This document shows, piece by piece, positions 3,525-30,662 of a stretch of DNA of 64,000 nucleotides. The stretch is from Scrofimicrobium sp. R131 (GTDB lineage: Bacteria; Actinomycetota; Actinomycetes; Actinomycetales; Actinomycetaceae). The stretch spans positions 806,001-870,000 of the forward strand of contig NZ_CP138335.1 of NCBI RefSeq assembly GCF_040256745.1. The letters are read 5' to 3'. The stretch's first letter is position 1, and the number at the start of each line of letters is the position of its first letter. Position numbers and translations under genes: made by a program. The notes beneath the pieces are model-generated. The model had not been told where the DNA came from. It worked only from the letters and a program-made list of their open reading frames with translations, and ran no database searches.

Positions 3525-3533
3525 GCTGACGGG

Positions 3534-3558
3534 GCCGCTGGCTTCCAGGGCCGGCGGC
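3534..3558 (+). terminator. Stem-loop after leuD, probable terminator without a U-tract
   Basis: GCCGCTGGC (3534-3542), loop TTCCAGG, GCCGGCGGC (3550-3558): nine pairs with one G-U wobble, 10 bases after the leuD stop. No run of T follows, as is common in high-GC actinobacteria. A second small hairpin (TCACTCC-TAGC-GGAGTGA) lies at 3643-3660 in the murA leader. Confidence 0.45.
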
Positions 3559-3741
3559 TGACCACCGCTCTCCGATTTGGCGAGGTGGCCGGGCCTTGGC
3601 TCACCGCCTCGTCAACCGGGAGCCGGGTTTTGGCCCGGGGTTTCACTCCTAGCGGAGTGACCTGCGTCTGACCCATTACCTAAACCTGCTGAGCTGATTT
3701 AGAGTTGGCAGGAGGTAGGGCAACAGTTGGAGGCCAAGTTA

Positions 3742-5058
3742 ATGAACAAGATTTTGCGAGTTGAGGGCGGCGCCCCCCTGGAAGGGGCCATTGAGGTCCG
3801 CGGGGCGAAGAACTTCGTCCCCAAGGCCATGGTCGCTTCCCTGCTGGGGGAGACTCAGTCCCAGCTGCGCAACGTCCCCCAGATTCGGGACGTGGACGTC
3901 GTGAGCGACCTGCTGAGTGCCCACGGCGTGAAAGTTCAGTACGACGCCGAGCGGGGAGTGCTAGACCTGGATCCGACCAACGTCGAGTTGGCGGCTCGCT
4001 CCGACATTGACGCACTGTCCGGCTCCTCCCGGATTCCAATTCTGTTTTGCGGCCCGCTGCTGCACCGCTTGGGCGAGGCGTTCATTCCCGAGTTGGGCGG
4101 CTGCAACATCGGGGGCCGGCCCATCGACTTCCACCTGGAGACCCTGCGCCGGTTCGGGGCGCAGATCGACAAGCGCCCTGAAGGCGTTTACATCACCGCT
4201 CCCCGGGGCTTGCGCGGCACCGTGGTGGAGCTGCCCTACCCGTCGGTCGGGGCCACCGAGCAGACCCTGCTGACCGCGGTCCAAGCCGAGGGAATCACCA
4301 CCCTGAAGGGGGCGGCGGTTGAACCCGAGATCACCGACCTGATCAACGTCCTGCAGAAAATGGGGGCGATCATCTCGGTCGACACGGACCGCACCGTCCG
4401 GATCGAAGGGGTGGATCGGCTGCGGGGCTTCGAGCACACCGCGCTGCCCGACCGGATCGAGGCGGCCTCCTGGGGGGCGGCGGCGCTGGCCACCCACGGC
4501 GACGTGTTCGTCCGCGGAGCCCACCAGCCCGACATGACCACCTTCCTGAACACTTTCCGTAAAGTCGGGGGAGAGTTCGAGATCCGGGAAAACGGCATCC
4601 GCTTCTACCATCCGGGTGGGTCGCTAAAGCCGATCGTGCTGGAAACTAACGTGCACCCCGGGTTCATGACCGACTGGCAGCAGCCCCTGGTGGTGGCGCT
4701 CACACAGGCGGACGGGCTTTCCCTCGTCCACGAAACGGTTTACGAAAACCGCTTCGGGTTTACTTCGGCCCTGCGGAAAATGGGCGCTAACATTCAGCTG
4801 TACAAAGAGTGCGTCGGGGGTGTGCCCTGCCGGTTCGGCCAGCGCAACTTCTACCATTCCGCCGTTATCTCCGGCCCAACCCCCCTGCACGGGGCCGACA
4901 TCTGGGTGCCGGACCTGCGCGGCGGATTCTCGCACCTGATTGCGGCGCTGGCCGCCCAAGGCGTGTCCAACGTGTCGGGCATTGAGGTGATCTCGCGTGG
5001 GTACGAGCACTTCATGCAAAAGCTTCGTCAACTGCACGCCCACGTCGAGTACGTCTAG
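3742..5058 (+). CDS. murA: UDP-N-acetylglucosamine 1-carboxyvinyltransferase
   Basis: 438 residues. MurA transfers enolpyruvate from PEP to UDP-GlcNAc, the first committed step of peptidoglycan synthesis, in the cytoplasm. The fosfomycin-target cysteine is present as Cys121 in ELGGCNIGGRPIDFH, and RGAKNFVPKAMVASLL matches the conserved N-terminal RGAKN loop. ATG 3742 is chosen because it gives MNKILRVEGG and has TTGGAGG 9 bases upstream; the in-frame TTG 3727 overlaps that site. plsC starts 8 bases after the stop and a run of envelope genes follows (plsC, gpsA, ddl), so this looks like a cell-envelope operon. Confidence 0.95.
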   Translation: MNKILRVEGGAPLEGAIEVRGAKNFVPKAMVASLLGETQSQLRNVPQIRDVDVVSDLLSAHGVKVQYDAERGVLDLDPTNVELAARSDIDALSGSSRIPILFCGPLLHRLGEAFIPELGGCNIGGRPIDFHLETLRRFGAQIDKRPEGVYITAPRGLRGTVVELPYPSVGATEQTLLTAVQAEGITTLKGAAVEPEITDLINVLQKMGAIISVDTDRTVRIEGVDRLRGFEHTALPDRIEAASWGAAALATHGDVFVRGAHQPDMTTFLNTFRKVGGEFEIRENGIRFYHPGGSLKPIVLETNVHPGFMTDWQQPLVVALTQADGLSLVHETVYENRFGFTSALRKMGANIQLYKECVGGVPCRFGQRNFYHSAVISGPTPLHGADIWVPDLRGGFSHLIAALAAQGVSNVSGIEVISRGYEHFMQKLRQLHAHVEYV

Positions 5059-5066
5059 GAGCAGCC

Positions 5067-5864
5067 GTGTCCCAACTCGCCCAGATCCGCAAGCTCGGTC
5101 CCCTCTACCAGCTGGCCTACGCCCTGCTGACCCCGATTTTAGGTCCGTTGACCCGGCCGCACTGGTCCGGCCAGGCTCCCCAGGGCGGCGCCATCCTGGT
5201 GTCCAACCACCTGTCGAACCTGGACCCGCTGGTGCTGGCCTACGCGTTTGGGGTTCGCGGTCACGAGGTGCGCTACCTGGCGAAGGCGGAACTGTTCAAG
5301 GTTCCCGTGCTCGGCTCGATCCTGACCCGCTGGGGGATGGTCCCGGTTCAGCGCGGTTCCGGCCACGCCGCCGACGCCCTGGACCAGGCGGCCATCGCGG
5401 TGCAGTCAGGCCAGTTGATCTCCATCTTCCCGGAGGGGACCATCACCCAGGACCCCGCTTTCTGGCCGATGAAAATGAAGACCGGTGCGGCCCGCCTGGC
5501 TCTGGCCACCGGCCAGCCGCTGGTGCCGGTGCTGCTCTGGGGCACGCAGGACGTGATGGATCGGAAGAGCCCCTGGCTGCGGCTGCGCCGAACCGACGTT
5601 TACATTCACGTGCTGGACCCGATCGATATTTCGGACCTGCCGGCCGACCCGGCCAATCACGAGGTGGTGACCGAGGTGACCGGCCGGATCCAGTCGGCCC
5701 TGCGCACCGCCGTCAGTCAGCTCCGCGGCCAGGACGCGCCCGAGCGGATCTGGGATCCGAAGTCGGACGAACACTCCGAGGCTTCGGTGAAGAAGTTCAG
5801 CTCTTGGCGGCGCGAGCTGGCGCGCAAAAACGGTCGACAGGACATCCTGCCCGGCCGGAGGTGA
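5067..5864 (+). CDS. plsC: 1-acyl-sn-glycerol-3-phosphate acyltransferase family protein
   Basis: 265 residues. PlsC-type enzymes acylate lysophosphatidic acid at the membrane to make phosphatidic acid. The HX4D catalytic motif is NHLSNLD (His48, Asp53) and the glycerol-phosphate-binding motif is FPEGTI. The GTG start follows the murA stop by 8 bases with AGGAGC upstream. The neighbour gpsA makes the glycerol 3-phosphate from which its substrate derives, which supports a phospholipid role. The C-terminal 40 residues are charged (KKFSSWRRELARKNGR) and not part of the catalytic domain. The exact acyl acceptor cannot be told from sequence. Confidence 0.88.
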   Translation: MSQLAQIRKLGPLYQLAYALLTPILGPLTRPHWSGQAPQGGAILVSNHLSNLDPLVLAYAFGVRGHEVRYLAKAELFKVPVLGSILTRWGMVPVQRGSGHAADALDQAAIAVQSGQLISIFPEGTITQDPAFWPMKMKTGAARLALATGQPLVPVLLWGTQDVMDRKSPWLRLRRTDVYIHVLDPIDISDLPADPANHEVVTEVTGRIQSALRTAVSQLRGQDAPERIWDPKSDEHSEASVKKFSSWRRELARKNGRQDILPGRR

Positions 5865-5930
5865 CCTGGGGCCTCAGGTGCGCTCGGGGTAAACTGGGAG
5901 TATCAGTTTCACACGATGAGGGCGAGGTTC

Positions 5931-6962
5931 ATGAGTAAGCAGCGGGCAGTCGTCTTGGGAACCGGCGCATGGGGAACCACCTTCGCCCAGGTGTTGGCCC
6001 ACGCCGGAATGAACGTGACCATGTGGGGTCGAAGCGAGGACACGGTCAGTTTCATCAACGACGGTGAGAACTCGCGCTACCTTCCGGGGATCGAGTTGGA
6101 CCCGGCTATCAGCGCGACCACCGAACTGGACGAGGCGCTGCGCCCCGACGGGGAAAACCCCGCCCTGGTGGCGCTGGCCGTCCCCACCTCGGCCATCGTG
6201 TCGGTGACCCAGGAGGCGGAGCTGACCGAGGCGGACACGCTGGTGCTGTCGCTGGCCAAGGGGCTGGAGCCGCACACCTACCGGACCGTCCAGCAGATGA
6301 TTGCCGAGGAAGGACAGATTGCCCCGGAGCGGATCGCCGTCCTGTCCGGGCCGAACCTGTCGCGCGAAATAGCTGACCAGCAGCCTGCCGCCGCGGTGGT
6401 CGCCTCCGACTCGGTCGAAACCGCCAAGCAGATCGCCATTTGGTGTCACAATCCGTACTTCCGCCCCTACGTTTCCACCGACGTGATCGGGGTCGAGCTG
6501 GCCGGGGCTTCCAAGAACGTGATCGCCCTGGCGATCGGCGCCTCCGAGGGGATGGGCCTCGGCTCCAACACCCGGGCCACCCTGATCACCCGCGGGCTGG
6601 CCGAAATGACCCGGCTCGGGGTGGCGCTCGGGGCTAACCCGCAAACCTACGCGGGCCTCGCCGGGGTCGGGGACCTGATTGCCACCTGCTCCTCGAAACT
6701 GTCCCGTAACTATTCGCTGGGGTTCCGACTCGGCCAGGGAATGAGCCTGCGGGAGGCCCTGGACCTGTCCCCGGGCGTGGTCGAGGGGGTGGCCACCTCG
6801 GCCCCCGTGTTGGAGCTGGCTCAAAGCTGCGGAGTTGATATGCCGATTACCGCCGGCGTGGTGGCCGTCCTCAGCGGGAAAGCGACCGTCCAACAGATGG
6901 GGGAGTCGCTGCTGGCTCGACCGCAGAAGATGGATGGCTGGGAAGTGGAGCTGCTCGACTAG
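5931..6962 (+). CDS. gpsA: Glycerol-3-phosphate dehydrogenase [NAD(P)+]
   Basis: 343 residues. GpsA reduces dihydroxyacetone phosphate to sn-glycerol 3-phosphate for phospholipid synthesis. The Rossmann motif GTGAWGTTFAQVLA is at the N terminus; LSGPNLSREIA, the catalytic-lysine segment ELAGASKNVIALAIG and the GVGDLIATC segment are typical. ATG 5931 gives MSKQRAVVLGTG with GGGCGAGG upstream; the frame has an earlier ATG at 5916 that overlaps this site. The next gene, ddl, starts one base after the TAG, the tight spacing expected for one transcript. Confidence 0.95.
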   Translation: MSKQRAVVLGTGAWGTTFAQVLAHAGMNVTMWGRSEDTVSFINDGENSRYLPGIELDPAISATTELDEALRPDGENPALVALAVPTSAIVSVTQEAELTEADTLVLSLAKGLEPHTYRTVQQMIAEEGQIAPERIAVLSGPNLSREIADQQPAAAVVASDSVETAKQIAIWCHNPYFRPYVSTDVIGVELAGASKNVIALAIGASEGMGLGSNTRATLITRGLAEMTRLGVALGANPQTYAGLAGVGDLIATCSSKLSRNYSLGFRLGQGMSLREALDLSPGVVEGVATSAPVLELAQSCGVDMPITAGVVAVLSGKATVQQMGESLLARPQKMDGWEVELLD

Positions 6963-6963
6963 C

Positions 6964-8109
6964 ATGAGTCCCATGTCTTTTTCTGACCGACCTGTCGTCC
7001 TGGTCCTCTTCGGGGGCCAATCCAGCGAGCACGAGATTTCCTGCGCCACCGCCGCGGGCGTGCTGGAAGCCATCGACCAGACCCGGTGGGAAGTGATTCC
7101 GGTGGGGATCACCCGCGATGGGCACTGGGTGCCGCAACCGAACGACCCCGCCCGGTACCGGCTCGGCGAAACCGGGGGGTACGAGGTGCTGAGCCAGGGG
7201 GAACAGGTCAGTTTCCTCTCCGGCACCACTTCGGATGGGCATCCGCGCCTGGTTTACTTCCAGGTGGACGAGGAGGGGCGCCCGCTGGCGGAGTCGCTTC
7301 ACCCCGGCCCGGTGGTTGACGTGGTGTTCCCGCTGCTTCACGGCCCGTTTGGGGAGGACGGCACCCTGCAGGGGCTGCTGGAACTGTCCGGGGTTCGCTA
7401 CGTTGGCTGCGGCGTGAGCGCTTCGGCCGTGGCGATGGACAAGCGGCTAACCAAGACTGTGCTGGAGGACGCCGGCATCCCGGTGGGCCGGTGGGAGGGC
7501 GTCTCAGCCCGCCAGTGGCAAGCCGACCGCGAGGGGGTGCTCGCGCGGCTCGACCGCCTCGGGCTGCCCGTCTTCGTGAAACCCTGCCGCGCCGGCTCGT
7601 CTCTGGGAATCACCCGGGTCACCGATGCGGGCGAGTTGGCCGCGGCGATTGAGGCGGCCCACGAACACGACCCGCAGGTGATCGTGGAGGCGGCTCACGC
7701 CGGGCGCGAAATCGAATGCGGGATCCTGCAGCTTCCAGGTGGCGAGCTGGTGGCCTCCCCCCTCGGTGAGATCACCGTGACCGACGCCCAGTTCTACGAC
7801 TACGAGTCGAAATACTTCGGCCAGGGTGGGGTGCAGCTCAGCTGCCCCGCCCAGGTGAACCACGCGGCAGCCATTCAGGAGGCGGCCCGGGTCTCGTTTG
7901 AGGCGCTGGGCGCTGAGGGGCTGGCTCGGGTGGACTTCTTCTACCAGGAGGAGACGGGCAGCTACATTGTCAACGAGGTGAACACCCTCCCGGGATTCAC
8001 CCCCTACTCGATGTACCCGACCATGCTGGCACAGGCCGGCTACCCGTACCCGAAACTGGTGGCCACCCTGCTGGAAGAGGCCATGTCCCGCCCGGTCGGC
8101 CTGCGATAA
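6964..8109 (+). CDS. ddl: D-alanine--D-alanine ligase
   Basis: 381 residues, ATP-grasp enzyme joining two D-Ala for peptidoglycan. Motifs: FGGQSSEHEISCATAAGVL at the N terminus, VSASAVAMDKRLTK, KPCRAGSSLGI (ATP-binding lysine loop), and the C-terminal VNEVNTLPGFTPYSMYP with the metal-binding Glu/Asn. The start ATG 6964 lies 1 base after gpsA; ATG 6973 is an alternative. The two-residue choice between MSPMSFSDRP and MSFSDRP does not change the domain. It completes a cell-envelope block with murA and plsC. Confidence 0.95.
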   Translation: MSPMSFSDRPVVLVLFGGQSSEHEISCATAAGVLEAIDQTRWEVIPVGITRDGHWVPQPNDPARYRLGETGGYEVLSQGEQVSFLSGTTSDGHPRLVYFQVDEEGRPLAESLHPGPVVDVVFPLLHGPFGEDGTLQGLLELSGVRYVGCGVSASAVAMDKRLTKTVLEDAGIPVGRWEGVSARQWQADREGVLARLDRLGLPVFVKPCRAGSSLGITRVTDAGELAAAIEAAHEHDPQVIVEAAHAGREIECGILQLPGGELVASPLGEITVTDAQFYDYESKYFGQGGVQLSCPAQVNHAAAIQEAARVSFEALGAEGLARVDFFYQEETGSYIVNEVNTLPGFTPYSMYPTMLAQAGYPYPKLVATLLEEAMSRPVGLR

Positions 8110-20185: not shown

Positions 20186-21043
20186 ATGAGCGAAACCGCG
20201 GACGTGGTCGGAATTGTTGTTTTTCAGTCCGACTTTGGCCTGCGCGACGGGGCAGTGGCGGCCATGAAGGGGGTCGCTTCGGGGGTGGATCTGAATCTGC
20301 GGCTCTACGATCTGACCCATCAGATTCCGCCCTACACCATCTGGGATGGGGCCTACCGGCTCTATCAGACCCTGGAGTACTGGCCGGCCGGTACCGTATT
20401 CGTGTCCGTGGTCGATCCGGGCGTAGGGTCTGCCCGGAAGTCCGTGGTGGCCCGAACCAAGACCGGACACTTCGTAGTGACACCTGACAACGGCACCCTC
20501 ACCCTGATTGCCGATGTCTATGGGATTGCCGAAATGCGAGAGATCAACGAGGCGGTTAACCGCCGCACCGACTCGCACAACCCGTACACCTTTCACGGGC
20601 GGGACGTCTACGCCTACACCGGCGCTCGATTGGCCGCGGGGATCATCACCTTTGAGCAGGTGGGGGACCTGGTGACCGAGCCGCCGCTGGCTTTGGACTA
20701 TCAGCGGGCCTCGATCCAGGCGGGGCAATTGCACGGCAACGTGCCGGCGCTGGACATTAGGTTCGGCAACGTCTGGACGAATATCAGCCACCAGTTGGCT
20801 GAGGAGTTTGGCCTGACCTTGGGCCAGCAGTACCGGGTCGAGGTGTTCTCTGGGGAAGAGCGAGTCTTTGCCGGGGACCTGCCGTACGTGAACGTCTTTG
20901 CCGACGTCGAAGACCAGGGGCCTCTGATCTACTTCAACTCATTGGATCAGCTTTCCCTGGCCACCAACCTGGGCAACTTTGCCCGGGAGAACGGCATTTC
21001 CCATGGGAACGAATGGTCGGTGACGGTCTCCAAGCTGGGCTGA
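20186..21043 (+). CDS. SAM hydroxide adenosyltransferase (DUF62 family)
   Basis: 285 residues. This family, related to fluorinase and chlorinase, hydrolyses S-adenosylmethionine to adenosine and methionine. The catalytic triad of hydroxide-type members is visible: Asp77 and Arg84 in VVDPGVGSARK and His137 in TFHGRD, with spacing like the characterised archaeal enzyme. QSDFGLRDGAV and TPDNGTL are further family motifs. I see nothing of the loop insert that marks halogenating members. ATG 20186 has GGAAAGAGGG upstream. It is followed, 94 bases on, by an ion-channel-like gene in the same direction; the biological reason for SAM hydrolysis remains open. Confidence 0.87.
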   Translation: MSETADVVGIVVFQSDFGLRDGAVAAMKGVASGVDLNLRLYDLTHQIPPYTIWDGAYRLYQTLEYWPAGTVFVSVVDPGVGSARKSVVARTKTGHFVVTPDNGTLTLIADVYGIAEMREINEAVNRRTDSHNPYTFHGRDVYAYTGARLAAGIITFEQVGDLVTEPPLALDYQRASIQAGQLHGNVPALDIRFGNVWTNISHQLAEEFGLTLGQQYRVEVFSGEERVFAGDLPYVNVFADVEDQGPLIYFNSLDQLSLATNLGNFARENGISHGNEWSVTVSKLG

Positions 21044-21137
21044 GTCACCACGCCCCGCTCCCTGCGATCGGCTGCGCTATCTGTGGACAACTCCGCCCGG
21101 GTGCAGCAGGATCGAGACCAGGAAAAAGGAGTGGCTG

Positions 21138-22316
21138 ATGGAGATTATCTGGATCTGGGCCGGCATCTTGCTGGTGGTGGTGACCCTGGTGGACACCTTC
21201 TTTACCGTCCTCAACTACAACGAACCCGGCCTGATCACCAATCGCGTGGTGGTGCAGGAGTGGCGCTTTATCCGTTTCGTCACCTCGCGGCTGAACGGTC
21301 ACGTCCGACGGTTCGTCTATCGCCAGATGACCGGGGTGATGCTGACCAGCGTGATCCTGGTGTGGCTGGCCGGCCTCATTCTGGGCTTCTCCTTTATCTA
21401 TATGGGGGCCCTGCAGTCCGGTGCCCTCACCCACGACCAGGGTGCCCCTCCGGGTTACTGGGGCGCGCTCTACTACTCGATGGGGCAGTTCTCGACGGTT
21501 GGCTCCACCCACTTCAGCCCTGAGACCACCTGGGTCAACATGCTCTCGGTGATCGAAACTCTGCTCTCGATTGTGCTGCTGTCGATGGTGATCACTTTCC
21601 TGAGCAACGTTTACAGTTCGATTCAGGCCCTCCGGACCCTGTGTGCCTCCTTCCCGGCGCCGGGCTCGAAGGTGGGCTCGCCGGTGGACACGCTGGCCCC
21701 CTATTTTCCCAGTCAGGACACCTGGTCCCTCGAAATCCATCTGGTGGCTGTCCGCGGCAACTTCAACACCTACTTCGACTCGTTGGCGCAGGATCACTCT
21801 TCCCTTGTCTTCCAAAGTGGCAAGGACCAGTTCTCGATGCCCTTTGGGGTCTACATGACGGCCGGCACCCTGGAGGTGCTTCGCTTCGGCCTGCCCGAGC
21901 AGCACGTTGCCCGGTCGCTGGCGGAGTTGGAGCGGCTGCACTACTCGTTTGCCGGGTGCCAGGAAGAACTTTACGGACTCTTGCGGTGGGATTTGCCCGA
22001 GGCGGCCACCCCGATGGAGGAGGCGGAGTTCTGGCGCGAGTGGAAGAGCGCCAGTGCGGGGGAGTGCGGGGGAGACTTCAGCGTGGTTCGGTTCCACCGT
22101 TTGCGCCAAGTTACTGCTGATTTGGCTCAGATCTCCCCGGATTACGGCGAGGAAGACCTCTACCGCACCTATTGCCGGTGGCTCGAGGCGATAACCCAGT
22201 ATGACGACTTCATCTCTCGGTCCAGTCGCTATCTTGGCTACCGCCCTGCGACTTCGGGTGGACGCTTCCCGCTAATTGATCCAATTGACAAATATGGTTG
22301 GCTAATTACGAAATAA
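21138..22316 (+). CDS. Potassium-channel-like membrane protein with atypical selectivity filter
   Basis: 392 residues. TM helices at about 5-26, 66-90 and 134-157, then a cytoplasmic domain of about 230 residues. The pore region reads YYSMGQFSTVGSTHF (residues 112-126), aligned with the two-TM K+ channel pore in which TVGYGD is usual; here it is TVGSTH, so the second Gly is missing and ion selectivity may differ. The large C-terminal domain (two parts, with LEIHLVAVRGNFNTYF) is unfamiliar to me and does not look like RCK. ATG 21138 has AAAGGAG upstream. May be co-transcribed with the SAM adenosyltransferase gene. Confidence 0.7.
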   Translation: MEIIWIWAGILLVVVTLVDTFFTVLNYNEPGLITNRVVVQEWRFIRFVTSRLNGHVRRFVYRQMTGVMLTSVILVWLAGLILGFSFIYMGALQSGALTHDQGAPPGYWGALYYSMGQFSTVGSTHFSPETTWVNMLSVIETLLSIVLLSMVITFLSNVYSSIQALRTLCASFPAPGSKVGSPVDTLAPYFPSQDTWSLEIHLVAVRGNFNTYFDSLAQDHSSLVFQSGKDQFSMPFGVYMTAGTLEVLRFGLPEQHVARSLAELERLHYSFAGCQEELYGLLRWDLPEAATPMEEAEFWREWKSASAGECGGDFSVVRFHRLRQVTADLAQISPDYGEEDLYRTYCRWLEAITQYDDFISRSSRYLGYRPATSGGRFPLIDPIDKYGWLITK

Positions 22317-22357
22317 CTAATGGCGAAGTTTACAAAATATGAGCGTGTTTCAAATAG

Positions 22358-22370
22358 CCTAGGGCCTAGG
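22358..22370. promoter_or_regulatory. CCTAGG-G-CCTAGG inverted repeat upstream of nrf operon
   Basis: Two CCTAGG palindromes separated by one G, in the 230-base gap between the channel gene and nrfH. The gap is otherwise AT-richer than average. Candidate operator for the nitrite-reduction operon. Confidence 0.35.
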
Positions 22371-22443
22371 TCCTAATTGCCAGCCCTTGTTTGGGCCCAT
22401 GGTCCCACGCCAGCCGAATTATCCCTGAAAAAAACGTGAATAT

Positions 22444-22485
22444 AGGCCTCGGAGCTGCCCTTTTGAACCTGGGGCTCCGGGGCCT
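22444..22485 (+). promoter_or_regulatory. Stem-loop upstream of nrfH
   Basis: AGGCCTCGGAGC (22444-22455) pairs with GCTCCGGGGCCT (22474-22485), 11 of 12 positions, loop 18 bases. A -10-like TATGAT follows at 22491-22496, so this may terminate the channel transcript ahead of the nrf promoter or be part of its control region. Confidence 0.45.
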
Positions 22486-22546
22486 CCCCCTATGATTGGA
22501 ACCAGGCAGAACCGCTGTCGACGTACAACCGAAGGGGATTGGCGCC

Positions 22547-23032
22547 ATGGCTGAAAAAACAGGGCGAAGCTCTTGGTCGCCTCGTTTTATTCTGGCAGCG
22601 GCCGCTGTTTTCATCGTAGGAATCATGGGTGGATTGGCGGTCTACACCTTTATCTATGCGAAAGGCGCGTCGTATTTGTCCAGCGACCCGCAAGCTTGCA
22701 TTAACTGCCACATCATGAACGACCAATACGACGGATGGATTGCCGGGCCGCACGCCAACGTGGCTACCTGCGCCGACTGCCATCTGCCTCACGACAACGT
22801 AGTCCACAAGTACGCGGTTAAGGCCGAAAACGGCTTTATGCACGCACTGAAGTTCACCACCGGCTGGCACCCGGAGAACATCGAGGCCCGACCGGTCAGT
22901 CTGCGGGTCACGAATAACGCCTGCCTCACCTGTCACGACGATTTCACTTACAGCGCTCGTCACCCCGGGGTCACCGGCGACGACGAAGTTTTTGACTGTA
23001 TCCGCTGCCATTCCGGCGTGGGACACGAGTAG
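22547..23032 (+). CDS. nrfH: Cytochrome c nitrite reductase small subunit (membrane quinol dehydrogenase)
   Basis: 161 residues, NapC/NirT-type tetraheme protein. One N-terminal membrane anchor (about 14-36) and four heme c motifs: CINCH (51-55), CADCH (75-79), CLTCH (126-130), CIRCH (151-155). NrfH takes electrons from menaquinol and passes them to NrfA outside the membrane. ATG 22547 has GAAGGGG upstream; the frame is open from 22496 but without a site. nrfA starts 8 bases after the stop. It heads a seven-gene run ending at 29001. Confidence 0.95.
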   Translation: MAEKTGRSSWSPRFILAAAAVFIVGIMGGLAVYTFIYAKGASYLSSDPQACINCHIMNDQYDGWIAGPHANVATCADCHLPHDNVVHKYAVKAENGFMHALKFTTGWHPENIEARPVSLRVTNNACLTCHDDFTYSARHPGVTGDDEVFDCIRCHSGVGHE

Positions 23033-23040
23033 GAGTAGAA

Positions 23041-24504
23041 ATGAGCGAGCAAACGCCGTCCCAGGGAAAGTCGAAGAACCGGCTGGTTCTCTTGGTGCTC
23101 ATCCTCGTCGGAGCTTTCGCTGCCACCGTGGTGATCACCGCCCTGCTGATGAACATCTTTGAGAAGAAGCAGGAGGGGGCCAAGACCTTCACCGAGGTGG
23201 TGGCCCTGGACGAAACCACGGTCGATCCCGCGATTTGGGGCAAGAACTTCCCCATTCAGTACGAGGCCTACAAGCGCACTGCCGAATACACTCCGTCCCA
23301 ACACTCGGGCGAAATGGTGCCCCACGACGTGGCCGGGGACCCGCGCACCGAGGTGAAGTCCTCCAAGATTGAAGAGGATCCCCGCCTGGTAACCATGTGG
23401 ACCGGTTACGCCTTCGCGACCGACTACCGCCACGCGCGCGGCCATGAGTACATGACCCTGGATCAGGAATTCACCCGACGCAACACCGAGTTCAAGCAAC
23501 CCGGTACCTGTGCCAACTGCCACGCTTCGATGCCGGCCGTTTACAAGGAGTTGGGCAATGGCGACGTGGATGCCGGCTTTGAAAAGATGGGCACGATGCC
23601 CCTGGGTGACCTGCTGGACATGACCGAGCACCCGGTGGCCTGCATCGACTGTCACGACCCGGCCACGATGGAACTGCGGATTACCCGGCCCGCCTTTGAA
23701 CGCGGCATTGCCGACCTGAAGGCCAGCGAGGGAATCGAGAACTACGACGTCAACCGCGACGCCACCCGTCAGGAGATGCGCTCCTACGTCTGTGCCCAGT
23801 GCCACGTCGAATACTACTTCGCCGGGGAGGACAAGGTCTTGACCTTCCCGTGGGCCAATGGGCTGGACCTGGATGACATCTGGGACTACTACCAGGAAGT
23901 CGGTCACGTTGACTGGGAGCACGGCACCACCGGCGCGAAGGTGCTGAAGGCGCAGCACCCCGAGTTCGACGTTTGGGCCCAGGGCGTCCATGCCGCCAAC
24001 GGTGTGAGCTGCGCTGACTGCCACATGAGCTACGAGCGAGTGGGGGCCGCCAAGGTCACCAACCACCACATCACCTCGCCGATGGCGGATCTGAATGCTT
24101 CCTGCGGTACCTGCCACACCGACACGGACGTCCTCGAAGAGCGGGTCACCACGATTCAGGACCGCTTCATCGAGTCCCGCGACCGGGCGATGGATGCGCT
24201 GGTCTCGCTGATTCACGACATTGAGGCCGCCCAGAAGAACGGCACTCCGGAAGCCAACATCAAGCTGGCTCAGGAATACCAGAATAAGGCGAGCTTCTAC
24301 GTGGACTACGTCTACTCGGAGAACTCCTACGGCTTCCACGCTCCTGACTACGAGCAGCGGATCCTCAGCCAGTCGCTGGACGCGGCCCGCAAGGGTCAGC
24401 TGGCACTGCGCGGGGCCACCGCCGAAGAGCTGTCGGCATCTGACATCACTACCAACAACCTGACCGCTTCCCTGCGGTCCGGCGGGGGGCAAAGTGGGCA
24501 CTGA
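23041..24504 (+). CDS. nrfA: Cytochrome c nitrite reductase catalytic subunit (ammonia-forming)
   Basis: 487 residues. NrfA reduces nitrite to ammonium with six electrons. It has an N-terminal membrane helix (about 14-37) instead of a cleaved signal, and five CXXCH heme sites: 157-161, 201-205, 251-255, 324-328, 355-359. The first, active-site heme motif is CANCH, not the CXXCK of E. coli; this CXXCH type is known in some NrfA clades. Active-site and calcium residues match: Glu257-Tyr258 in QCHVEYYF and Lys303, Gln305, His306 in KAQHPE. It overlaps the next gene by 11 bases. No CcmFH-type special lyase for CXXCK would be needed. Confidence 0.95.
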   Translation: MSEQTPSQGKSKNRLVLLVLILVGAFAATVVITALLMNIFEKKQEGAKTFTEVVALDETTVDPAIWGKNFPIQYEAYKRTAEYTPSQHSGEMVPHDVAGDPRTEVKSSKIEEDPRLVTMWTGYAFATDYRHARGHEYMTLDQEFTRRNTEFKQPGTCANCHASMPAVYKELGNGDVDAGFEKMGTMPLGDLLDMTEHPVACIDCHDPATMELRITRPAFERGIADLKASEGIENYDVNRDATRQEMRSYVCAQCHVEYYFAGEDKVLTFPWANGLDLDDIWDYYQEVGHVDWEHGTTGAKVLKAQHPEFDVWAQGVHAANGVSCADCHMSYERVGAAKVTNHHITSPMADLNASCGTCHTDTDVLEERVTTIQDRFIESRDRAMDALVSLIHDIEAAQKNGTPEANIKLAQEYQNKASFYVDYVYSENSYGFHAPDYEQRILSQSLDAARKGQLALRGATAEELSASDITTNNLTASLRSGGGQSGH

Positions 24505-25309
24505 TCCCACCGAAAATAAAGCAGCAATCCTGGAGTTCCTGGCCTACGCGCCCCCGGAGGTAAAGGCCTGGGCCCAGCGACAAGTAGAAATATTGGAAGG
24601 AACCGGTCCAGACGCTGTCCCGCCGACGGCTGACGAGGTAGTTGAGGCGGAGCTGGCCCCGGTCGGCTCGCCCGACCTCGAGTTGTCCGCCCCTGACTCG
24701 ACCAACCCGGATTCGGCCCACTCCGAACCGGATGTTGAAGACGGCATTGAGGACGAACCCGAGGACTTCTACAACGATATGGAGGGGGAGGACGACCTGC
24801 TGCACCGTCGTCCGAAGGCGGCCGTGCCCGCGGCCGTCCGCCCCGCCTCGTCCCACCGCTTCCCGGCGGCAGCCAAGTTTGCCCTGGGATTGGTGCTGGT
24901 CGTCGGCGTCGGGTTCGGCGTCTGGTTTGGTGGGCGCCCCTCCGGCACCGAGGAGCAGCTTCCCACGATGGGGGCCTCCCAGGGGGTCACCGAGGAGGAG
25001 GCGGCCGCCCGCGCTACCGAGTTGGAGGCTCTGATTGCCGCCAGCCCCGACGATGTCGATGCGCGCCTGGAACTGGGCGTCATCTACTTCAACCAGGCCA
25101 AGGTCAACGAGGCCAGTGAGCAGTGGCTGGCGGTAACCGAGTTGGATCCGGAGAACATCACCGCTTGGTACAACCTGGGGTTTGCCTACCTGTCCGACCC
25201 GGACCAGGCCGATCGGGCCCAGGAAGCCTGGCAGAAGGTGATCGACATCGATCCTGATTCCGACCTGGCCCAGACCATCTCGATGCATATGGACAGCGTT
25301 ATCGACTGA
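24494..25309 (+). CDS. TPR membrane protein of cytochrome c maturation (NrfG/CcmH-like)
   Basis: 271 residues. A short N-terminal segment (AILEFLAYAPPEVKAWAQRQVEIL), an acidic low-complexity stretch (residues 45-100), one membrane helix (about 126-143) and two or three TPR-like repeats (ELEALIAASPDDVDARLELGVIYF... WYNLGFAYL). TPR proteins of this type, such as NrfG and the CcmI part of CcmH, present apocytochrome c to the heme lyase. GTG 24494 lies inside the end of nrfA, and the TGA overlaps the ATG of ccdA, so it is translationally coupled on both sides. Assignment to cytochrome maturation is from context and architecture. Confidence 0.72.
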   Translation: MGTDPTENKAAILEFLAYAPPEVKAWAQRQVEILEGTGPDAVPPTADEVVEAELAPVGSPDLELSAPDSTNPDSAHSEPDVEDGIEDEPEDFYNDMEGEDDLLHRRPKAAVPAAVRPASSHRFPAAAKFALGLVLVVGVGFGVWFGGRPSGTEEQLPTMGASQGVTEEEAAARATELEALIAASPDDVDARLELGVIYFNQAKVNEASEQWLAVTELDPENITAWYNLGFAYLSDPDQADRAQEAWQKVIDIDPDSDLAQTISMHMDSVID

Positions 25310-26058
25310 TGGACGCAGTGTCTTTCCCCCTCGTCTTCCTGGCCGGGATCGTTTCGTTCGCCGCTCCCTGCTTCCTGCCGATCGTGCCCGTGTTCGTGGC
25401 CTATCTGGCGGGTCAGCCGGCGACGGTCCCGGTCGCTACCGGTTTCATCCGACCGGAGGATCGCCAGGTCCAGGCCCCGGTGGGCGGGGGCAAAGGGATG
25501 GCGCTGCGCAACTCGCTCGCTTTCGTCGCCGCTTTCTCCGCCGTCTTTATCGGCCTGTGGGGGCTGATCTCCCTGATCGGCTGGGTGGTTGGCGATTTCC
25601 GGCCGGCACTGCGGGTGGGAGGCGGAATCCTGCTGATCCTCCTGGGCCTCTACACCGGGGGGATCCTGAAACTCAGCTGGCTGGATCGCTCGATTGGCGG
25701 ACCCAAGCTGAAGGCGGGACAACCCACCATGGCTCGCTCCGCCCTGATGGGACTGGCCTTTGGCGCGGGCTGGTCGCCCTGCATTGGTCCGGTGCTGGGG
25801 GTGGTGCTGGGAATGGCGGTGACCACCGGCTCGGCCGGCCACGGCCTGGCCCTGCTGGTTGTCTACTGCCTGGGACTGGGACTTCCGTTCGTGCTGGTGG
25901 CCCTGGGGGTCGACCGGCTGACCGCGAAGCTGTCCTGGTTTAGCCGCCATTTCCGCGCGATTCAACTGATCAGTGCGGCCTTGTTGATGCTGATGGGGTT
26001 CTTGATGATCACCGACCTGTTGGCACCCTTGAGCGGGTTCTCTTGGGTAAATCTGTAG
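25309..26058 (+). CDS. ccdA: Cytochrome c biogenesis thiol transporter CcdA
   Basis: 249 residues, six predicted membrane helices. CcdA moves reducing equivalents from cytoplasmic thioredoxin across the membrane. The two conserved cysteines are visible in SFAAPCFLPIVPVF and GAGWSPCIGPVLG. Start ATG 25309 shares a base with the previous TGA (TGATG). Its partner is the extracytoplasmic thioredoxin at 28384-29001, which reduces apocytochrome cysteines before heme attachment. Confidence 0.93.
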   Translation: MDAVSFPLVFLAGIVSFAAPCFLPIVPVFVAYLAGQPATVPVATGFIRPEDRQVQAPVGGGKGMALRNSLAFVAAFSAVFIGLWGLISLIGWVVGDFRPALRVGGGILLILLGLYTGGILKLSWLDRSIGGPKLKAGQPTMARSALMGLAFGAGWSPCIGPVLGVVLGMAVTTGSAGHGLALLVVYCLGLGLPFVLVALGVDRLTAKLSWFSRHFRAIQLISAALLMLMGFLMITDLLAPLSGFSWVNL

Positions 26059-26071
26059 GAAGAGAGAGAAG

Positions 26072-27511
26072 ATGACTGAACCAGCCGGCCCCACGGTCCA
26101 AGTGGGAGAGGAGCAGCCCCGGGAGCACGAAGTTGCCGTCACCGAGGTGTTCCACTGGGTCTACCGTCTTTTCTACTCAAAGACGGTCGGCCTAATTCTG
26201 ATCCTGCTGATGGCGTTCTACGCCGTCTTTGGGTCCCTGATCATGCAGGCGCAGCCGGGGACTTTTGACGATCCGGCCGCCAAAGCCCAATTCCTGGCTC
26301 AGGCGCAGGAAGTTTACGGCGGGTGGACTTCGATCCTGAACGCCGTCGGGTTCTTCCACATCTTTACTTCGGTGGGGTTCTACGTCATCGTCTCGCTGTT
26401 GGCGCTGAGCATCATTGCCTGCACCGTGCACCGGATCCCCGAGTTGTGGAAGCGCTACCGGGAGCCGCGCGTGCACGTGGCTGCCCGCTTCTTTGCCAAG
26501 GCGCGTTACCGCGGCACCGTGCCAACCACCGCCTCGTCCACCGAGACGCTCGAAGCGGCCCGGCGCGTGCTGAGACGCAACCGCTTCCGCTACCTGGAGG
26601 ACCCGCGCGAGCCGGGCGTGGCCGCCTACGCGGACCGCTACGCCTGGAGCGGGATCGGGACCGTCATCGCTCACCTCAGCTTCATCCTGATTCTGGCCGC
26701 CTTCGTCATCAGCTCGACCTGGGGGATTGAAGAGGACATGGCCGTGCCCGTGGGCGGCTCCGTTCCGGTGGGACACGGGACCGACCTGAGCGTGCAGGCG
26801 CTCTCGTTCAAAGACAGCTACACCGAGACGGGCCGGCCCGCCGACTACGTCTCTGTGATTCAGATTCTCGACGGGGATGAAGTGCTGGCCGAGCAGGAAG
26901 TTCGGGTCAACTCGCCCCTGGACTACGGCGGTTTCCGCTTCCACCAGTCTTCGTTCGGCATCGCTGCTGACGTGAGCATTGCCGATGCAAGCGGAGAGAC
27001 CCTCTTCTCCGGCTCGGTCCCGCTGAAGTGGACCTCCAACGACGGGCAGAAGGCTGTCGGGCGAGTCGACTTGGAGGGACTGGAAGTCGTGGTTGTCACC
27101 CCGGCCTCCGGGGCGGTCGACTCCGGGATTCCGGTCGGCACGGCCGTGTTTGAGGTGTACCAGGCCGAGGCGGAGGAGCCGCTGGGAGTGGTGGGCGTGA
27201 CCCAGGGCGAGAGCGAGACGGTTGAGGGATACACCGTTTCCTTCGAGCGGGAACGCCAGTACACCGGGATCCGGATGCGGCAGGACCCCGGCGCCCCCTG
27301 GATGTGGGTTGGGTCCATCCTGCTGGTGGTCGGCATGAGCATCACCTTCATGTTCCCCTACCGGCGCCTGTGGTTGCGCCACGAAGAGGGCGAGCTTCTG
27401 TTCGGCGCGGTTTCCCGCCTCGACTACTCCTACCAGCGAATGTTCGAAAAACTAGTGGCCGAAGTGGACCAGGAACTTGGTTCGGCCAGCAGAGAGGAAA
27501 ACCATGGATAG
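26072..27511 (+). CDS. resB: Cytochrome c biogenesis protein ResB/Ccs1
   Basis: 479 residues. System II heme-lyase subunit with the ResB domain: TM helices near residues 34-56, 95-120 and 190-215, and a final one near 410-430 (PWMWVGSILLVVGMSITFMFPYRRLW). A large extracytoplasmic domain lies before the last TM (LDYGGFRFHQSSFGIAADVSI is the conserved YGGFRFHQSSFG segment). ATG 26072 has GGAAGAGAGAG upstream. The gene overlaps ccsA by 8 bases. With CcsA it forms the complex that exports heme and attaches it to CXXCH. Confidence 0.94.
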   Translation: MTEPAGPTVQVGEEQPREHEVAVTEVFHWVYRLFYSKTVGLILILLMAFYAVFGSLIMQAQPGTFDDPAAKAQFLAQAQEVYGGWTSILNAVGFFHIFTSVGFYVIVSLLALSIIACTVHRIPELWKRYREPRVHVAARFFAKARYRGTVPTTASSTETLEAARRVLRRNRFRYLEDPREPGVAAYADRYAWSGIGTVIAHLSFILILAAFVISSTWGIEEDMAVPVGGSVPVGHGTDLSVQALSFKDSYTETGRPADYVSVIQILDGDEVLAEQEVRVNSPLDYGGFRFHQSSFGIAADVSIADASGETLFSGSVPLKWTSNDGQKAVGRVDLEGLEVVVVTPASGAVDSGIPVGTAVFEVYQAEAEEPLGVVGVTQGESETVEGYTVSFERERQYTGIRMRQDPGAPWMWVGSILLVVGMSITFMFPYRRLWLRHEEGELLFGAVSRLDYSYQRMFEKLVAEVDQELGSASREENHG

Positions 27512-28391
27512 CATTTTGGTCGTGGCCGAGTACATCCTGACCGCGGCACTCGTGTTCGTGGTGCTGGCGCTGGTGTGTGACCTGGTAGTGGTGACCACCA
27601 AGCGTGCCAAGCAGCCTGAGAAGGTAGCGGTCGGTGCGACCGTCACCTCGCAGGTCGGCACCTACGAACGGCAGAAACTGCCGACCGGATTGGCGCTGTA
27701 CGCCACCGGCTTCACCTTCATTTCCTTCATCCTGACCCTGGCCTACCTGGTGATCCGGATGACCCAGACCGGCTACGGCCCGTTCTCAAATCAGCACGAG
27801 TTCGCCGTCTCCTTCGTGCTGGGGATCCTGGGTGCCTACCTGGTGGCCGAGTACCTGTGGCGGGTTCGGATCCTGTCGCTGATGGTGCTCCCGGTGGCCG
27901 CCGCGCTGCTGCTCTACTCGATGACGCTGGACACCACCGTGCAGCCGCTCATCCCCGCCCTGCAGAACAACCTGCTGCTCACCCTGCACGTTGGCTTCGC
28001 GATTGCGGCCTACGGCGCGGCTGCAGTTTCGTTCGGCGCTGCCGTCCTGTACCTGATCTACCCGAACCTGAAGATCCGTCGCCTCCCCCCGCGGGACCTG
28101 TTCGACGACATTGGCTACAAGGCCGCGACGGTGACCTTCCCGATGCTGACCATCATGATTGTGCTGGGTGCCGTCTGGGCCAACACCGCCTGGGGCCGGT
28201 ACTGGGGTTGGGATCCGAAGGAGACCGCCGCGCTGGTAACCTGGCTGATCTACGGGGCCTACCTGCATGCCCGCGTCACCCGCGGCTGGCAGGGCAAGCG
28301 CAGTGCCTGGCTGCTGATCATCGGTTTCGCGGCCGTGCTGTTTGCCTACTTTGGGAACCACTTCTTTGGCGGTCTGCACTCGTATGCCTGA
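27504..28391 (+). CDS. ccsA: Cytochrome c biogenesis protein CcsA (heme handling)
   Basis: 295 residues, about eight membrane helices. The heme-binding WWD motif is WGRYWGWDPKETAALVTWL, and the conserved His residues lie nearby (LHVGFAIAAYG, YLHARVTRGW, GNHFFGGLHSY). It forms the system II cytochrome c synthetase with ResB. ATG 27504 overlaps the resB end by 8 bases (ATGGATAG) and has AGAGAGG upstream. The 3' end overlaps the thioredoxin gene by 8 bases, again showing translational coupling. Confidence 0.95.
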   Translation: MDSILVVAEYILTAALVFVVLALVCDLVVVTTKRAKQPEKVAVGATVTSQVGTYERQKLPTGLALYATGFTFISFILTLAYLVIRMTQTGYGPFSNQHEFAVSFVLGILGAYLVAEYLWRVRILSLMVLPVAAALLLYSMTLDTTVQPLIPALQNNLLLTLHVGFAIAAYGAAAVSFGAAVLYLIYPNLKIRRLPPRDLFDDIGYKAATVTFPMLTIMIVLGAVWANTAWGRYWGWDPKETAALVTWLIYGAYLHARVTRGWQGKRSAWLLIIGFAAVLFAYFGNHFFGGLHSYA

Positions 28392-29001
28392 GAAACGTGC
28401 CTTTAGAGAGACCCCGCTCGGCAACATTGTCATTCTGGCGGTCGTCACCCTGATAGTTTTGGCCGGCATCTGGCTGGTGGGTAGCTGGCGGGACGGGGGT
28501 GCGTCAGCTGCGGCCGAGTCGGGGGACACCACCGGCGTGTCCGAGGTGGACGTGCCCGACAGTGGCCAGCCCGCCCCGGAAGTGGGGCAGCCGGCCCCGG
28601 CCTTCACCGCGCGGACCACCGGCGGCGACACCTTCGAGGTGGGCGAACCGGGCCAGCCCACCTGGTTGATCTTCAACGCCACCTGGTGCTCCAACTGTCG
28701 GGCGGAAGTTCCCGACATTCAGGAGGTTTATCAGCAGGTGGGGGACCGGGCTCAGATCATCTCGGTCTACGTCTCTGACACCCCAAGCGCCGTGTTGGAT
28801 TACAGCGCCAAGCTGAACCTGACCTACCCGCAGGTGATCGACAGCGGCAACAAGATCGCCTCCCTGTACCGAGTGATGGGCTTGCCCACCCACTACTTCC
28901 TCGATGCGGATGGAAACATCCACAGCGTGGAGGTGGGGACGCTGGGACAGGCCCAGGTCTTGGCGAAGCTAGCCGAGCTGGGCGTGCAGGTCGGCGGGTA
29001 G
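28384..29001 (+). CDS. Membrane-anchored thioredoxin-like protein (TlpA/ResA type)
   Basis: 205 residues. One N-terminal TM helix (about 13-33), a linker, and a thioredoxin fold with active site WCSNC (Cys102, Cys105), cis-Pro in MGLPTHYFLD. Such proteins reduce the CXXCH cysteines of apocytochrome c outside the membrane, using electrons from CcdA. ATG 28384 overlaps the ccsA end (ATGCCTGA). It is the last gene of the nrf run. The stop codon lies within the first unit of a 12-bp tandem repeat. Confidence 0.9.
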   Translation: MPEKRAFRETPLGNIVILAVVTLIVLAGIWLVGSWRDGGASAAAESGDTTGVSEVDVPDSGQPAPEVGQPAPAFTARTTGGDTFEVGEPGQPTWLIFNATWCSNCRAEVPDIQEVYQQVGDRAQIISVYVSDTPSAVLDYSAKLNLTYPQVIDSGNKIASLYRVMGLPTHYFLDADGNIHSVEVGTLGQAQVLAKLAELGVQVGG

Positions 29002-29025
29002 TTCGGCGGGTAGTTCGGCAGGTGG
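28990..29025. repeat. 12-bp tandem repeat, three copies, at the end of the thioredoxin gene
   Basis: Units like TTCGGCGGGTAG run at 28990-29001 (first base G), 29002-29013 and 29014-29025 (two changes), with a partial fourth. The first unit carries the TAG stop. Copy number change would not alter the frame. Confidence 0.6.
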
Positions 29026-29035
29026 TTCGGCCAAT

Positions 29036-29063
29036 TTGGTCGACGCCGAAATTTCTGTATCAT
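29036..29063 (+). promoter_or_regulatory. Promoter of tRNA-Gly
   Basis: TTGGTC (29036-29041), 16-base spacer, TATCAT (29058-29063). A small stem TCTTGC-CCCG-GCAAGA (29074-29089) lies in the 5' leader just before the tRNA. Confidence 0.5.
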
Positions 29064-29093
29064 TAGGAGGTGTTCTTGCCCCGGCAAGACGCC

Positions 29094-29167
29094 GCGAGTG
29101 TAGCTCAATGGTAGAGCCTCTGCCTTCCAAGCAGATGGTGCGGGTTCGATTCCCGTCACTCGCTCCA
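29094..29167 (+). tRNA. tRNA-Gly (TCC)
   Basis: Acceptor GCGAGTG (29094-29100) pairs with CACTCGC (29157-29163); anticodon stem CTGCC.. with loop CTTCCAA gives TCC; T-arm GCGGGTTCGATTCCCGT. CCA is encoded at 29165-29167. Confidence 0.95.
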
Positions 29168-29282
29168 CTGGCCGTTTGAAGCAAAAGTCGGCTTTCCATT
29201 CAACCAATCGTGATCGGCGGAGTCGTCCATTTGCGCCTTGGTTTAGCTTTTCAGGTAAAACGCGGCCTCTACTGGGAGCCGG

Positions 29283-30662
29283 TCATTTTCCCGAGCCGGC
29301 TTTCACTTGTTTGCGTGCCGTTCGGCGGGCCCGGCGCAGGTCAGTTCGCTGGTCTGCCCACTCGGTCACCGAGGGGGAGGTCAGGGCCATCAGCAGCGGC
29401 ACCGCCATCATCACCGACAGCAGGTACTGGTCGAACTCGGGGCTGCTGCCAAGTCGCCACCAGGTGACGAAGGCCGGGACAATGGTGAGGGTGGCGGCGG
29501 CCATCAGGAAGAGCCGGGCCGGCCGAAACCCATCCCACATCAGGGCAGCCAACCCGGCAAACACCGCGGCGCCCAGCAGGTAGCTGACCACGTAGGTGCG
29601 GACGATCTGATCCGGGGTAGCAGCAGCCAGTAGCCCCTGGTCGGGGAGCAACTTGGTGACGGCCCCCGCGTATGAGCCCGAGTCGCGCAGGGCCAGGACG
29701 GACCAGGCCACCATTCCCCCGATCTGCAACAAAATCAGCAGCATGGCGACGTAAATCGGGATTGGCCGCTCTGCCCGCAAGAACTCTTTGGCGTCATCCA
29801 GGTGGGAGGGGAGGTGGGTGGGCTCCGCCGGCTTGGAGGCCGGGACTGGGCGCAGATCCACGATCGGCAGGGCCCCGTCGGTCTTGATCGAGTCGCCGCC
29901 GCCGTTGCGGGAGTGATAGGCGGTGGAAAAGTCGGCCAGAACCCGGACTTTCACCTCCGGATTTGCATCCTGCAGAGTCTGGACCACGTGGTCGCGTTCC
30001 TGATCCGTGTTCTCGGCAATCTTGTGCGTCACCTGCAGGGTGAAGAGTGACAGCCCGACCGACTTGTCATAGGTGGCCGCCCCGAGCCAACCGACCCGGG
30101 TCCCGCCGGGTAGCGGCCATGCTGGGGGACACTGCCAGAACCGGATGTGGTGGCGCTGAGCCGGGTTCCCCTCGACCTCCTGTTGAAAGGCTAGGTCCTG
30201 CTGCCGGTTGAACAGCAGGAGTGGGCTGACCGGGGCCTGCGGGTAGGACTTCCGCGTCAGCGTGGACAGAGCGATGCCCAGGGAGGTTCGCAGGGTGATC
30301 GGGTCGGCCTTCACCCACCCGGCCCGGTGCATTGCGGCCTCCACCTGCGCTTCAGTGCCGTGAAAGGCCAGATTGACGGGGTCGCCCAGCAGTCCCTCGG
30401 TGGTGCGGGCGCGGCCGATGAAGTAGTCCGGGACATACAGGGTGGTGAGGACCCGGTGAATCCGGGGGAGCAGCAGGTAGGCCAGCGTGGCCCACAGGAG
30501 GATCAACCAGGCGAACACGGTCCAGTGAAACGAGTGAATGTTGGACAGCGAGACGACGAACAGCCAGCAGGAGGCGGCGGTGGCCAGCAGGAAGAATGCG
30601 CCGTCGGCGGCGGCGTTGAGCCGTTCCCAGCGGTGGGAAGTTCGGTGGATCGGTCGTGCCAT
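29283..30662 (-). CDS. Membrane protein with LssY C-terminal domain
   Basis: 459 residues. N-terminal two TM helices (about 20-75), an LssY-C-type extracytoplasmic or cytoplasmic domain (HRAGWVKADPITLRTSLGIA, NRQQDLAFQQEVEGNPAQRHHIRFW, then YDKSVGLSLFTLQVTHKI), and four further TM helices in the C-terminal half. ATG 30662 is chosen for GGGGAGG five bases upstream; the frame is open further to 30797. LssY relates to a Legionella secretion-locus protein; biochemical function unknown. The gene stands alone on the minus strand between tRNA-Gly and tig. Bases 29168-29282 hold no gene that I can see. Confidence 0.8.
   Translation of the reverse strand: MARPIHRTSHRWERLNAAADGAFFLLATAASCWLFVVSLSNIHSFHWTVFAWLILLWATLAYLLLPRIHRVLTTLYVPDYFIGRARTTEGLLGDPVNLAFHGTEAQVEAAMHRAGWVKADPITLRTSLGIALSTLTRKSYPQAPVSPLLLFNRQQDLAFQQEVEGNPAQRHHIRFWQCPPAWPLPGGTRVGWLGAATYDKSVGLSLFTLQVTHKIAENTDQERDHVVQTLQDANPEVKVRVLADFSTAYHSRNGGGDSIKTDGALPIVDLRPVPASKPAEPTHLPSHLDDAKEFLRAERPIPIYVAMLLILLQIGGMVAWSVLALRDSGSYAGAVTKLLPDQGLLAAATPDQIVRTYVVSYLLGAAVFAGLAALMWDGFRPARLFLMAAATLTIVPAFVTWWRLGSSPEFDQYLLSVMMAVPLLMALTSPSVTEWADQRTDLRRARRTARKQVKAGSGK

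Follow-up and report, generated by a model that had tools for sequence, protein, structure and literature searches.

An nrf operon with its own system II cytochrome c maturation genes and a TPR protein in Scrofimicrobium sp. R131 and other Actinomycetaceae: a probable portable module for nitrite ammonification

A stretch of 64,000 nucleotides from Scrofimicrobium sp. R131 (Actinomycetaceae; positions 806,001 to 870,000 of contig NZ_CP138335.1, here called the window) contains seven co-directional plus-strand genes at 22547-29001. They encode NrfH, NrfA, a tetratricopeptide repeat (TPR) protein, CcdA, ResB, CcsB, and a ResA-like thioredoxin. We hold with good confidence that this operon is a horizontally portable nitrite-ammonifying respiratory module that carries its own maturation kit and is most likely read as one transcript. 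The sequence itself shows gene content, gene order, CXXCH motifs, a dedicated type of paralogue, a shared gene history, and discordance with the host tree, whereas the activity of the enzyme, the protein that the TPR protein serves, and co-transcription are inferred. The genome of the host comprises 2,221,980 bases in a single contig.

Protein family models confirmed the gene content and order that a first-pass annotation had proposed from the sequence (Table 1). PF02335 identifies a pentaheme NrfA, which is accompanied by a tetraheme partner of the NapC/NrfH type, and ResB and CcsB (WWD motif and heme-binding histidines), together with CcdA and a ResA-type thioredoxin, make up a system II set. 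The Pfam score of CcdA is just below threshold, but the position of its gene is conserved across the family loci. For the thioredoxin, the best NCBIfam relatives are ResA and StoA, both below their cut-offs. The four overlaps described earlier are exact on the open reading frame coordinates, namely 11 bases for nrfA/TPR, 1 base for TPR/ccdA, and 8 bases each for resB/ccsB and ccsB/thioredoxin. The other two junctions are gaps of 8 bases (nrfH-nrfA) and 13 bases (ccdA-resB). A promoter scan of 22300-29300 returned two candidates only. The seven genes most likely form one transcript, because gaps this short hardly offer space for promoters and both candidates lie on the minus strand.

Table 1. 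Features of the nrf operon and its upstream region (positions in the window)
Feature	Position	Strand	Evidence
DosR-box-like palindrome TGGGCCCATGGTCCCA	22392..22407	.	11/12 to TGGGAC-N4-GTCCCA; starts 155 bases before nrfH
nrfH, tetraheme menaquinol oxidase	22547..23032	+	TIGR03153 2e-44; CINCH, CADCH, CLTCH, CIRCH
nrfA, pentaheme nitrite reductase	23041..24504	+	PF02335 1e-120; five CXXCH motifs
Membrane-anchored TPR protein	24494..25309	+	TPR_11 5e-14
ccdA, thiol-reductant transporter	25309..26058	+	DsbD_TM 8e-6, 25.8 bits (just under the 27.1 cut-off)
resB (Ccs1), nrf type	26072..27511	+	PF05140 1e-65
ccsB (CcsA/ResC), nrf type	27504..28391	+	TIGR03144 7e-61; WWD motif and conserved histidines
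ResA-like extracytoplasmic thioredoxin (CSNC)	28384..29001	+	AhpC-TSA 1.5e-18

The distribution of the operon was surveyed in an even sample of 200 genomes of the family, one per species. An nrfA gene was found in 42 genomes, and all of these loci were read (that of genome G128 in two pieces). The TPR gene lies 3' of nrfA in every one of the 42 loci, and ccdA is part of the operon in 34. The resB, ccsB, and thioredoxin genes follow wherever the contig continues; the contig of G014 ends after resB, G128 is split, and G080 is partly broken. A survey of nrfA neighbourhoods, proposed as a check with the first reading, has thus placed system II genes or their remnants beside nrfA in all 42 family genomes. 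This association is far beyond chance. Bowdeniella nasicola and Ancrocorticia populi carry relatives of the operon. In G080 (locus L083, about 2950-7400), only fragments of nrfA, resB, and ccsB are left and no nrfH was found, but the TPR, ccdA, and thioredoxin frames are still open; this operon appears to be decaying, with nrfA, resB, and ccsB decaying together. Six of the eight loci that lack ccdA (G033, G082, G045, G014, G069, and G036) are in genomes where a canonical system II locus elsewhere carries ccdA. The other two are in G061 (72% complete) and G133 (locus L048), and a second ccsB was found in neither genome. Absence of ccdA is not strictly tied to a second set, as G093 and G117 have both sets yet keep ccdA in the nrf operon.

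The TPR protein has an N-terminal part of about 124 residues, one predicted transmembrane (TM) segment at about residues 125-143, and a C-terminal TPR domain at about 164-271. In NrfG, a single TM segment is likewise followed by a TPR domain. Hydropathy indicated a strong TM segment in all scanned relatives except that of L049 (the L071 protein was too short for the scan, and the starts of both are probably misplaced). AlphaFold2, run on four sequences, gave a model with high confidence in the TPR domain alone (about 90 or higher for most of residues 171-260), and a fold search with this model returned generic TPR domains; NrfG is absent among the 50 matches listed, which excludes nothing. With PF23914, the CcmH/CycH TPR model, the window protein scores 23 bits against a cut-off of 42. 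This model matches 26 of 28 scanned members at E<=0.01 (best 7e-10), but other TPR models match at least as many. Many relatives have a 'PxxHPxI/M'-like motif directly after the TM helix, a possible heme or metal contact that is absent from the window protein.

Two observations point to a role of the TPR protein in NrfHA maturation: every locus has its gene between nrfA and the genes for the synthase, and in 20 canonical system II loci a hidden Markov model (HMM) detected no TPR gene. The generic fold, the lack of a specific match, and the long N-terminal part, which is variable, mostly acidic, and of low model confidence, would also suit a scaffold or regulator of another envelope process. 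We consider such a role unlikely in view of the conserved gene position (42/42 loci), its HMM-negative canonical counterparts, and the NrfG-like layout of the protein. In proteobacteria, the C-terminal helix of NrfA is where NrfG and CcmI bind (review PMC12285233), and by analogy the TPR protein may bind the C-terminal helix of its apocytochrome. It nevertheless does not appear to be NrfG in the strict sense, because NrfG serves the CXXCK heme (PMC12285233), which the window NrfA lacks, and because the CcmH/CycH model remains below its cut-off. The first-pass annotation had described the pairing of an NrfG-like TPR protein with system II as unusual. The pairing itself is real, but the comparison with NrfG calls for caution, as the CXXCK heme is missing, and Wolinella and Bacteroidales are known examples of nrfHA with adjoining system II genes.

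Phylogenetic evidence supports transfer of the operon between genera as a unit. Gene histories were compared with RpoB in 26 genomes (30 were requested, and 26 had a full RpoB frame). Mantel correlations were 0.84 for nrfA with ccsB and 0.85 for nrfA with resB (0.84-0.85 among NrfA, ResB, and CcsB), compared to 0.41-0.42 for these proteins with RpoB, a value itself above all permutations. Partial correlations given RpoB were 0.81-0.82, and none of 2000 permutations reached any Mantel value. Genus g4 is one clade in the RpoB tree, with a support of 100 in the Shimodaira-Hasegawa-like approximate likelihood ratio test (SH-aLRT). The concatenated operon splits this genus, placing G003 and G163 with genera g10, g1, and g16, and G038, G062, and G083 with g24 and g26. 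Forcing g4 to be monophyletic on the operon was 555 log units worse (approximately unbiased (AU) test p 1.8e-43, from quick trees). Among the nine genera with at least two rows in the operon tree, g4, g1, and g10 are not one clade and six are. When 12 g4 genomes were tested gene by gene, the g4 clade was rejected for nrfH, nrfA, ccdA, resB, ccsB, and the thioredoxin gene (p at most 0.0064).

The insertion site gives a second line of evidence. The operon lies between rne and rplU in the g4A genomes G003, G163, and G180 and in the g10 genome G166; G130 shows the rplU side of the operon, and G158 has the operon thioredoxin before rplU. The site is empty in 18 of 22 genomes tested (rne end within 1.5 kb before rplU), with G003, G163, G158, and G166 as the exceptions. 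The rplU gene of g4A is 88-95% identical to that of other g4 members and 66-69% identical to that of g10, while NrfA of G163 shares 67% identity with g10 and 50-52% with the rest of g4. The BLAST identities of its CcsB differ less (66% with g10 and 57-63% with other g4, over shorter pieces). The simplest reading is that a g10-like operon entered g4A at rne|rplU, perhaps through homologous flanks, from an exact donor outside the sample. Transfer as a unit is supported because g4, a single clade by RpoB, is rejected by the trees of six of the seven genes and because g4A and g10 share an insertion site that is empty in 18 of 22 genomes; the earlier suggestion that the arrangement would allow the whole unit to move is supported by these data.

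The tree conflict could also stem from an old duplication of the operon followed by differential loss. Such a history would agree with the lack of a closely matched donor (the G163 NrfA being only about 67% identical to g10) and with the lack of any plasmid or phage match to the TPR protein at 1e-5. It is quite improbable, given that none of the 200 genomes has two full nrfA genes (the two hits in G079 belong to a single gene) and that the operons of g4A and g10 share rne|rplU while rplU stays typical of its genus. At the window locus, signs of mobile elements were not found, as repeats in 21000-29600 are weak and chance-like. A tRNA-Gly gene starts 92 bases after the thioredoxin gene. No conserved flanks were found within the genus of the host, where the upstream and downstream neighbours are located elsewhere in the relatives in which they were found.

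The maturation genes of the operon are of a distinct type. A canonical actinobacterial system II locus (thioredoxin-CcdA-ResB-CcsB) provides the same four functions, and both CcsB/ResB types keep the catalytic residues, including the WWD motif, three CcsB histidines, and one ResB histidine. It differs in its 19-51% identity to the window proteins (six loci), its separate CcsB clade, its association with PF13442, and, as described above, the TPR gene. PF13442, the QcrC-type diheme cytochrome, was the sole alternative c-type client surveyed. In the family sample, ccsB (TIGR03144) occurs in 69 genomes, PF13442 in 34, and nrfA in 42. The 69 ccsB genomes are the 42 with nrfA, 26 of the 34 with PF13442 (the other eight have both), and G099, the sole ccsB genome with neither client, which is 76% complete. 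Neither nrfA nor PF13442 occurs in any of the 131 family genomes that lack ccsB.

A maximum-likelihood tree of CcsB separated 42 nrf-linked rows (39 from the family, and L120, L147, and L149 from other families of the order) from 20 canonical rows by one branch with 100/100 support, although the program warned that the bootstrap was not fully settled and L158 is a long branch. A further 26 CcsB loci, one a fragment, were scored with both HMMs, and all were canonical. By tree and HMM together, with two places counted once, all 44 distinct CcsB loci away from nrf in the family sample are of the canonical type, and none is an nrf-type CcsB without nrfA. Seven of the eight genomes with both nrfA and PF13442 show both CcsB types; in the eighth, G014, the nrf contig ends before ccsB. 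ResB residue 120 (gene at 26072-27511) is a conserved histidine in the nrf type and a proline in canonical ResB, and may be a specificity residue.

The ResB-CcsB pair of the operon is thus best classed as a predicted client-dedicated system II, because nrf-linked CcsB forms a separate clade and all 44 non-nrf loci are canonical. Retention of ccsA/resB without nrfA, which the first-pass annotation named as the case that would count against its reading, was looked for in the family and not found. Its term "self-contained" also agrees with the 2.22 Mb genome of the host, in which there is a single ccsB and no PF13442 cytochrome. That these genes merely adjoin nrfHA and serve general cytochrome c maturation is very improbable: any further c-type cytochrome in that genome would depend on the single ccsB, but ccsB presence and absence tracks nrfA, and a housekeeping role was rejected on the 0/44 count in the family sample and on the two CcsB types in double-client genomes.

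The window NrfA has CXXCH at all five hemes, with CANCH at the active-site heme in place of the CXXCK usual in NrfA, so that the operon has no CXXCK client of the kind that defines an NrfI-type heme lyase. Of the 42 family loci, 40 have five CXXCH and no CXXCK, and in the remaining two (G079 and G080) the gene is broken. The usual explanation for a heme lyase dedicated to NrfA is its odd CXXCK motif. As this NrfA is without CXXCK, recognition of that motif cannot explain the dedicated kit. Outside the family, samples of 396 phylum genomes and 297 order genomes were used, and 24 further nrfA loci were read, a set that excludes second copies, matches that were weak or fragmentary, and two full ones (G459 and G470). 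There were 18 CXXCK loci and 6 CXXCH loci. Within the stretches read, none of the 18 CXXCK loci has a TPR-resB-ccsB unit. Six of them give weak matches to the ccsB model (25-46 bits), which from size and family are probably of the CcmF/CcmC type, and one of these (L124) also has a thioredoxin of 98 bits. Four of the six CXXCH loci have the unit, namely L120, L147, L149, and L148 (TPR and resB present before the contig stops), and two lack it, L123 (2.3 kb read downstream) and L146 (G782; 13 kb read). In L146 (7432-12836), an operon-like thioredoxin and a frame containing ten CXXCH motifs lie upstream of the CXXCH nrfHA, with no linked ResB/CcsB. In a Bacillus locus outside the phylum (L094), the NrfA motif is CYTCK. 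An all-CXXCH subgroup of NrfA is known and, according to a review, most likely matured by system II (PMC12285233), and the CXXCH NrfA of Intrasporangium calvum C5 has been shown to work (PMC6349771).

Several observations weigh against a portable module with a complete kit of its own. G782 and G326 carry CXXCH NrfHA without an adjoining TPR-ccdA-resB-ccsB, so the linked set is not always needed, and the eight family loci without ccdA mean that the kit can be incomplete. G079 has a broken nrfA, in two pieces, as the only damaged gene. Long intergenic gaps occur in some genomes, where their sizes are rough, as start codons of relatives were set by alignment to the window proteins. The tree of the TPR domain is uninformative, and the g4 clade was not rejected with it (p 0.27, 11 g4 genomes). 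Finally, g4 is a given taxon, but it was chosen for testing after the CcsB tree had been seen, and each species is represented by one genome.

The region upstream of nrfH has a recurring palindrome. Among 32 loci (8 near-duplicates of 40 were dropped), 16 have it at 10 or more of 12 positions, all between -113 and -203. Shuffled upstream regions gave a mean of 0.58 and at most 4 of 32 loci, figures that are somewhat flattering because the palindrome was found in the same sequences in which it was later counted. The 300-base stretches before the other six genes gave 0 to 4 loci at the same threshold, and 185 kb of canonical loci, a mostly coding control, contained 2 sites. In the 64-kb window alone, the pattern is no commoner than chance (4 found, 7.9 expected). 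The palindrome core GGGAC-N4-GTCCC fits the mycobacterial DosR motif, reported as TTSGGGACTWWAGTCCCSAA (PMC2275270), and the operon may be controlled by a DosR-like response regulator. None of four FNR/CRP-type patterns was found in the 32 upstream regions. Elsewhere around the operon, 12-base tandem repeats of the GCGGGTAGTTCG type at 28982-29022 span the end of the thioredoxin gene and beyond. A membrane protein with an ion-channel-like look is encoded at 21138-22316; it has no Pfam match at E 1e-6 and is present in 5 of 7 genomes tested, including that of the host.

In the proposed mechanism, NrfH would take electrons from menaquinol and hand them to NrfA, which would reduce nitrite to ammonium outside the membrane. 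CcdA would pass reducing power outward to the ResA-like thioredoxin, which would keep the CXXC cysteines of apo-NrfH and apo-NrfA reduced. ResB-CcsB would move heme across the membrane and attach it at the nine CXXCH sites, and the TPR protein would most likely hold apo-NrfA (or apo-NrfH) at the synthase. More tentatively, two divergent system II lines may run in parallel in some Actinomycetaceae, one serving the bc complex and the other NrfHA. This second line would have gained a TPR client receptor in the style of system I, giving selectivity for an all-CXXCH cytochrome, and the set would travel between genera as a cassette via conserved housekeeping flanks under a DosR-like hypoxia/NO switch. 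Since a dedicated kit accompanies an all-CXXCH NrfA, the reason for it may be client selectivity or supply rather than motif recognition. Organisms with both sets allow a direct question, namely what decides which synthase loads which cytochrome. A portable operon could explain the patchy spread of nitrite ammonification in Actinomycetaceae, and such a small unit could be moved to a laboratory host.

Linked maturation genes are known from several nrf systems. The nrf operon of Wolinella succinogenes, nrfHAIJ, likewise encodes a system II synthase dedicated to it, the CcsBA fusion NrfI, described as the sole confirmed CXXCK synthase of system II organisms (PMC12285233). NrfI serves a CXXCK heme, whereas here all motifs are CXXCH, ResB and CcsB are separate, and ccdA, the thioredoxin, and the TPR protein are added. 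In Bacteroidales, nrfHA-resB-ccsA has been described in B. thetaiotaomicron (BT1414-1418; PMC10434189). A Parabacteroides distasonis plasmid record has nrfH, nrfA, resB, and ccsA in the same order, but its NrfA has CWTCK, the annotated neighbours lack TPR, ccdA, or thioredoxin genes, and the nrf-type models give only 16 bits for its ResB and about 79 for its CcsA. E. coli nrfABCDEFG resembles the operon in a TPR protein (NrfG) reported to be tied to NrfA maturation (PMC12285233); NrfEFG differ as system I lyase paralogues for CXXCK. In B. azotoformans, nrfHA is reported to be linked to system I genes (PMC3475470), and the NrfA of I. calvum C5 mentioned above is of the same heme-1 type as the window protein. 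The available text of the review PMC12285233 describes no actinobacterial operon of this kind, and a literature search covering titles and abstract openings, mostly without subscription papers, found no description of an nrf operon with a TPR gene and a complete system II. NrfHA with linked ResB/CcsA is already known, and the arrangement of a TPR protein, a complete system II, and an all-CXXCH NrfA is a variant on this known theme.

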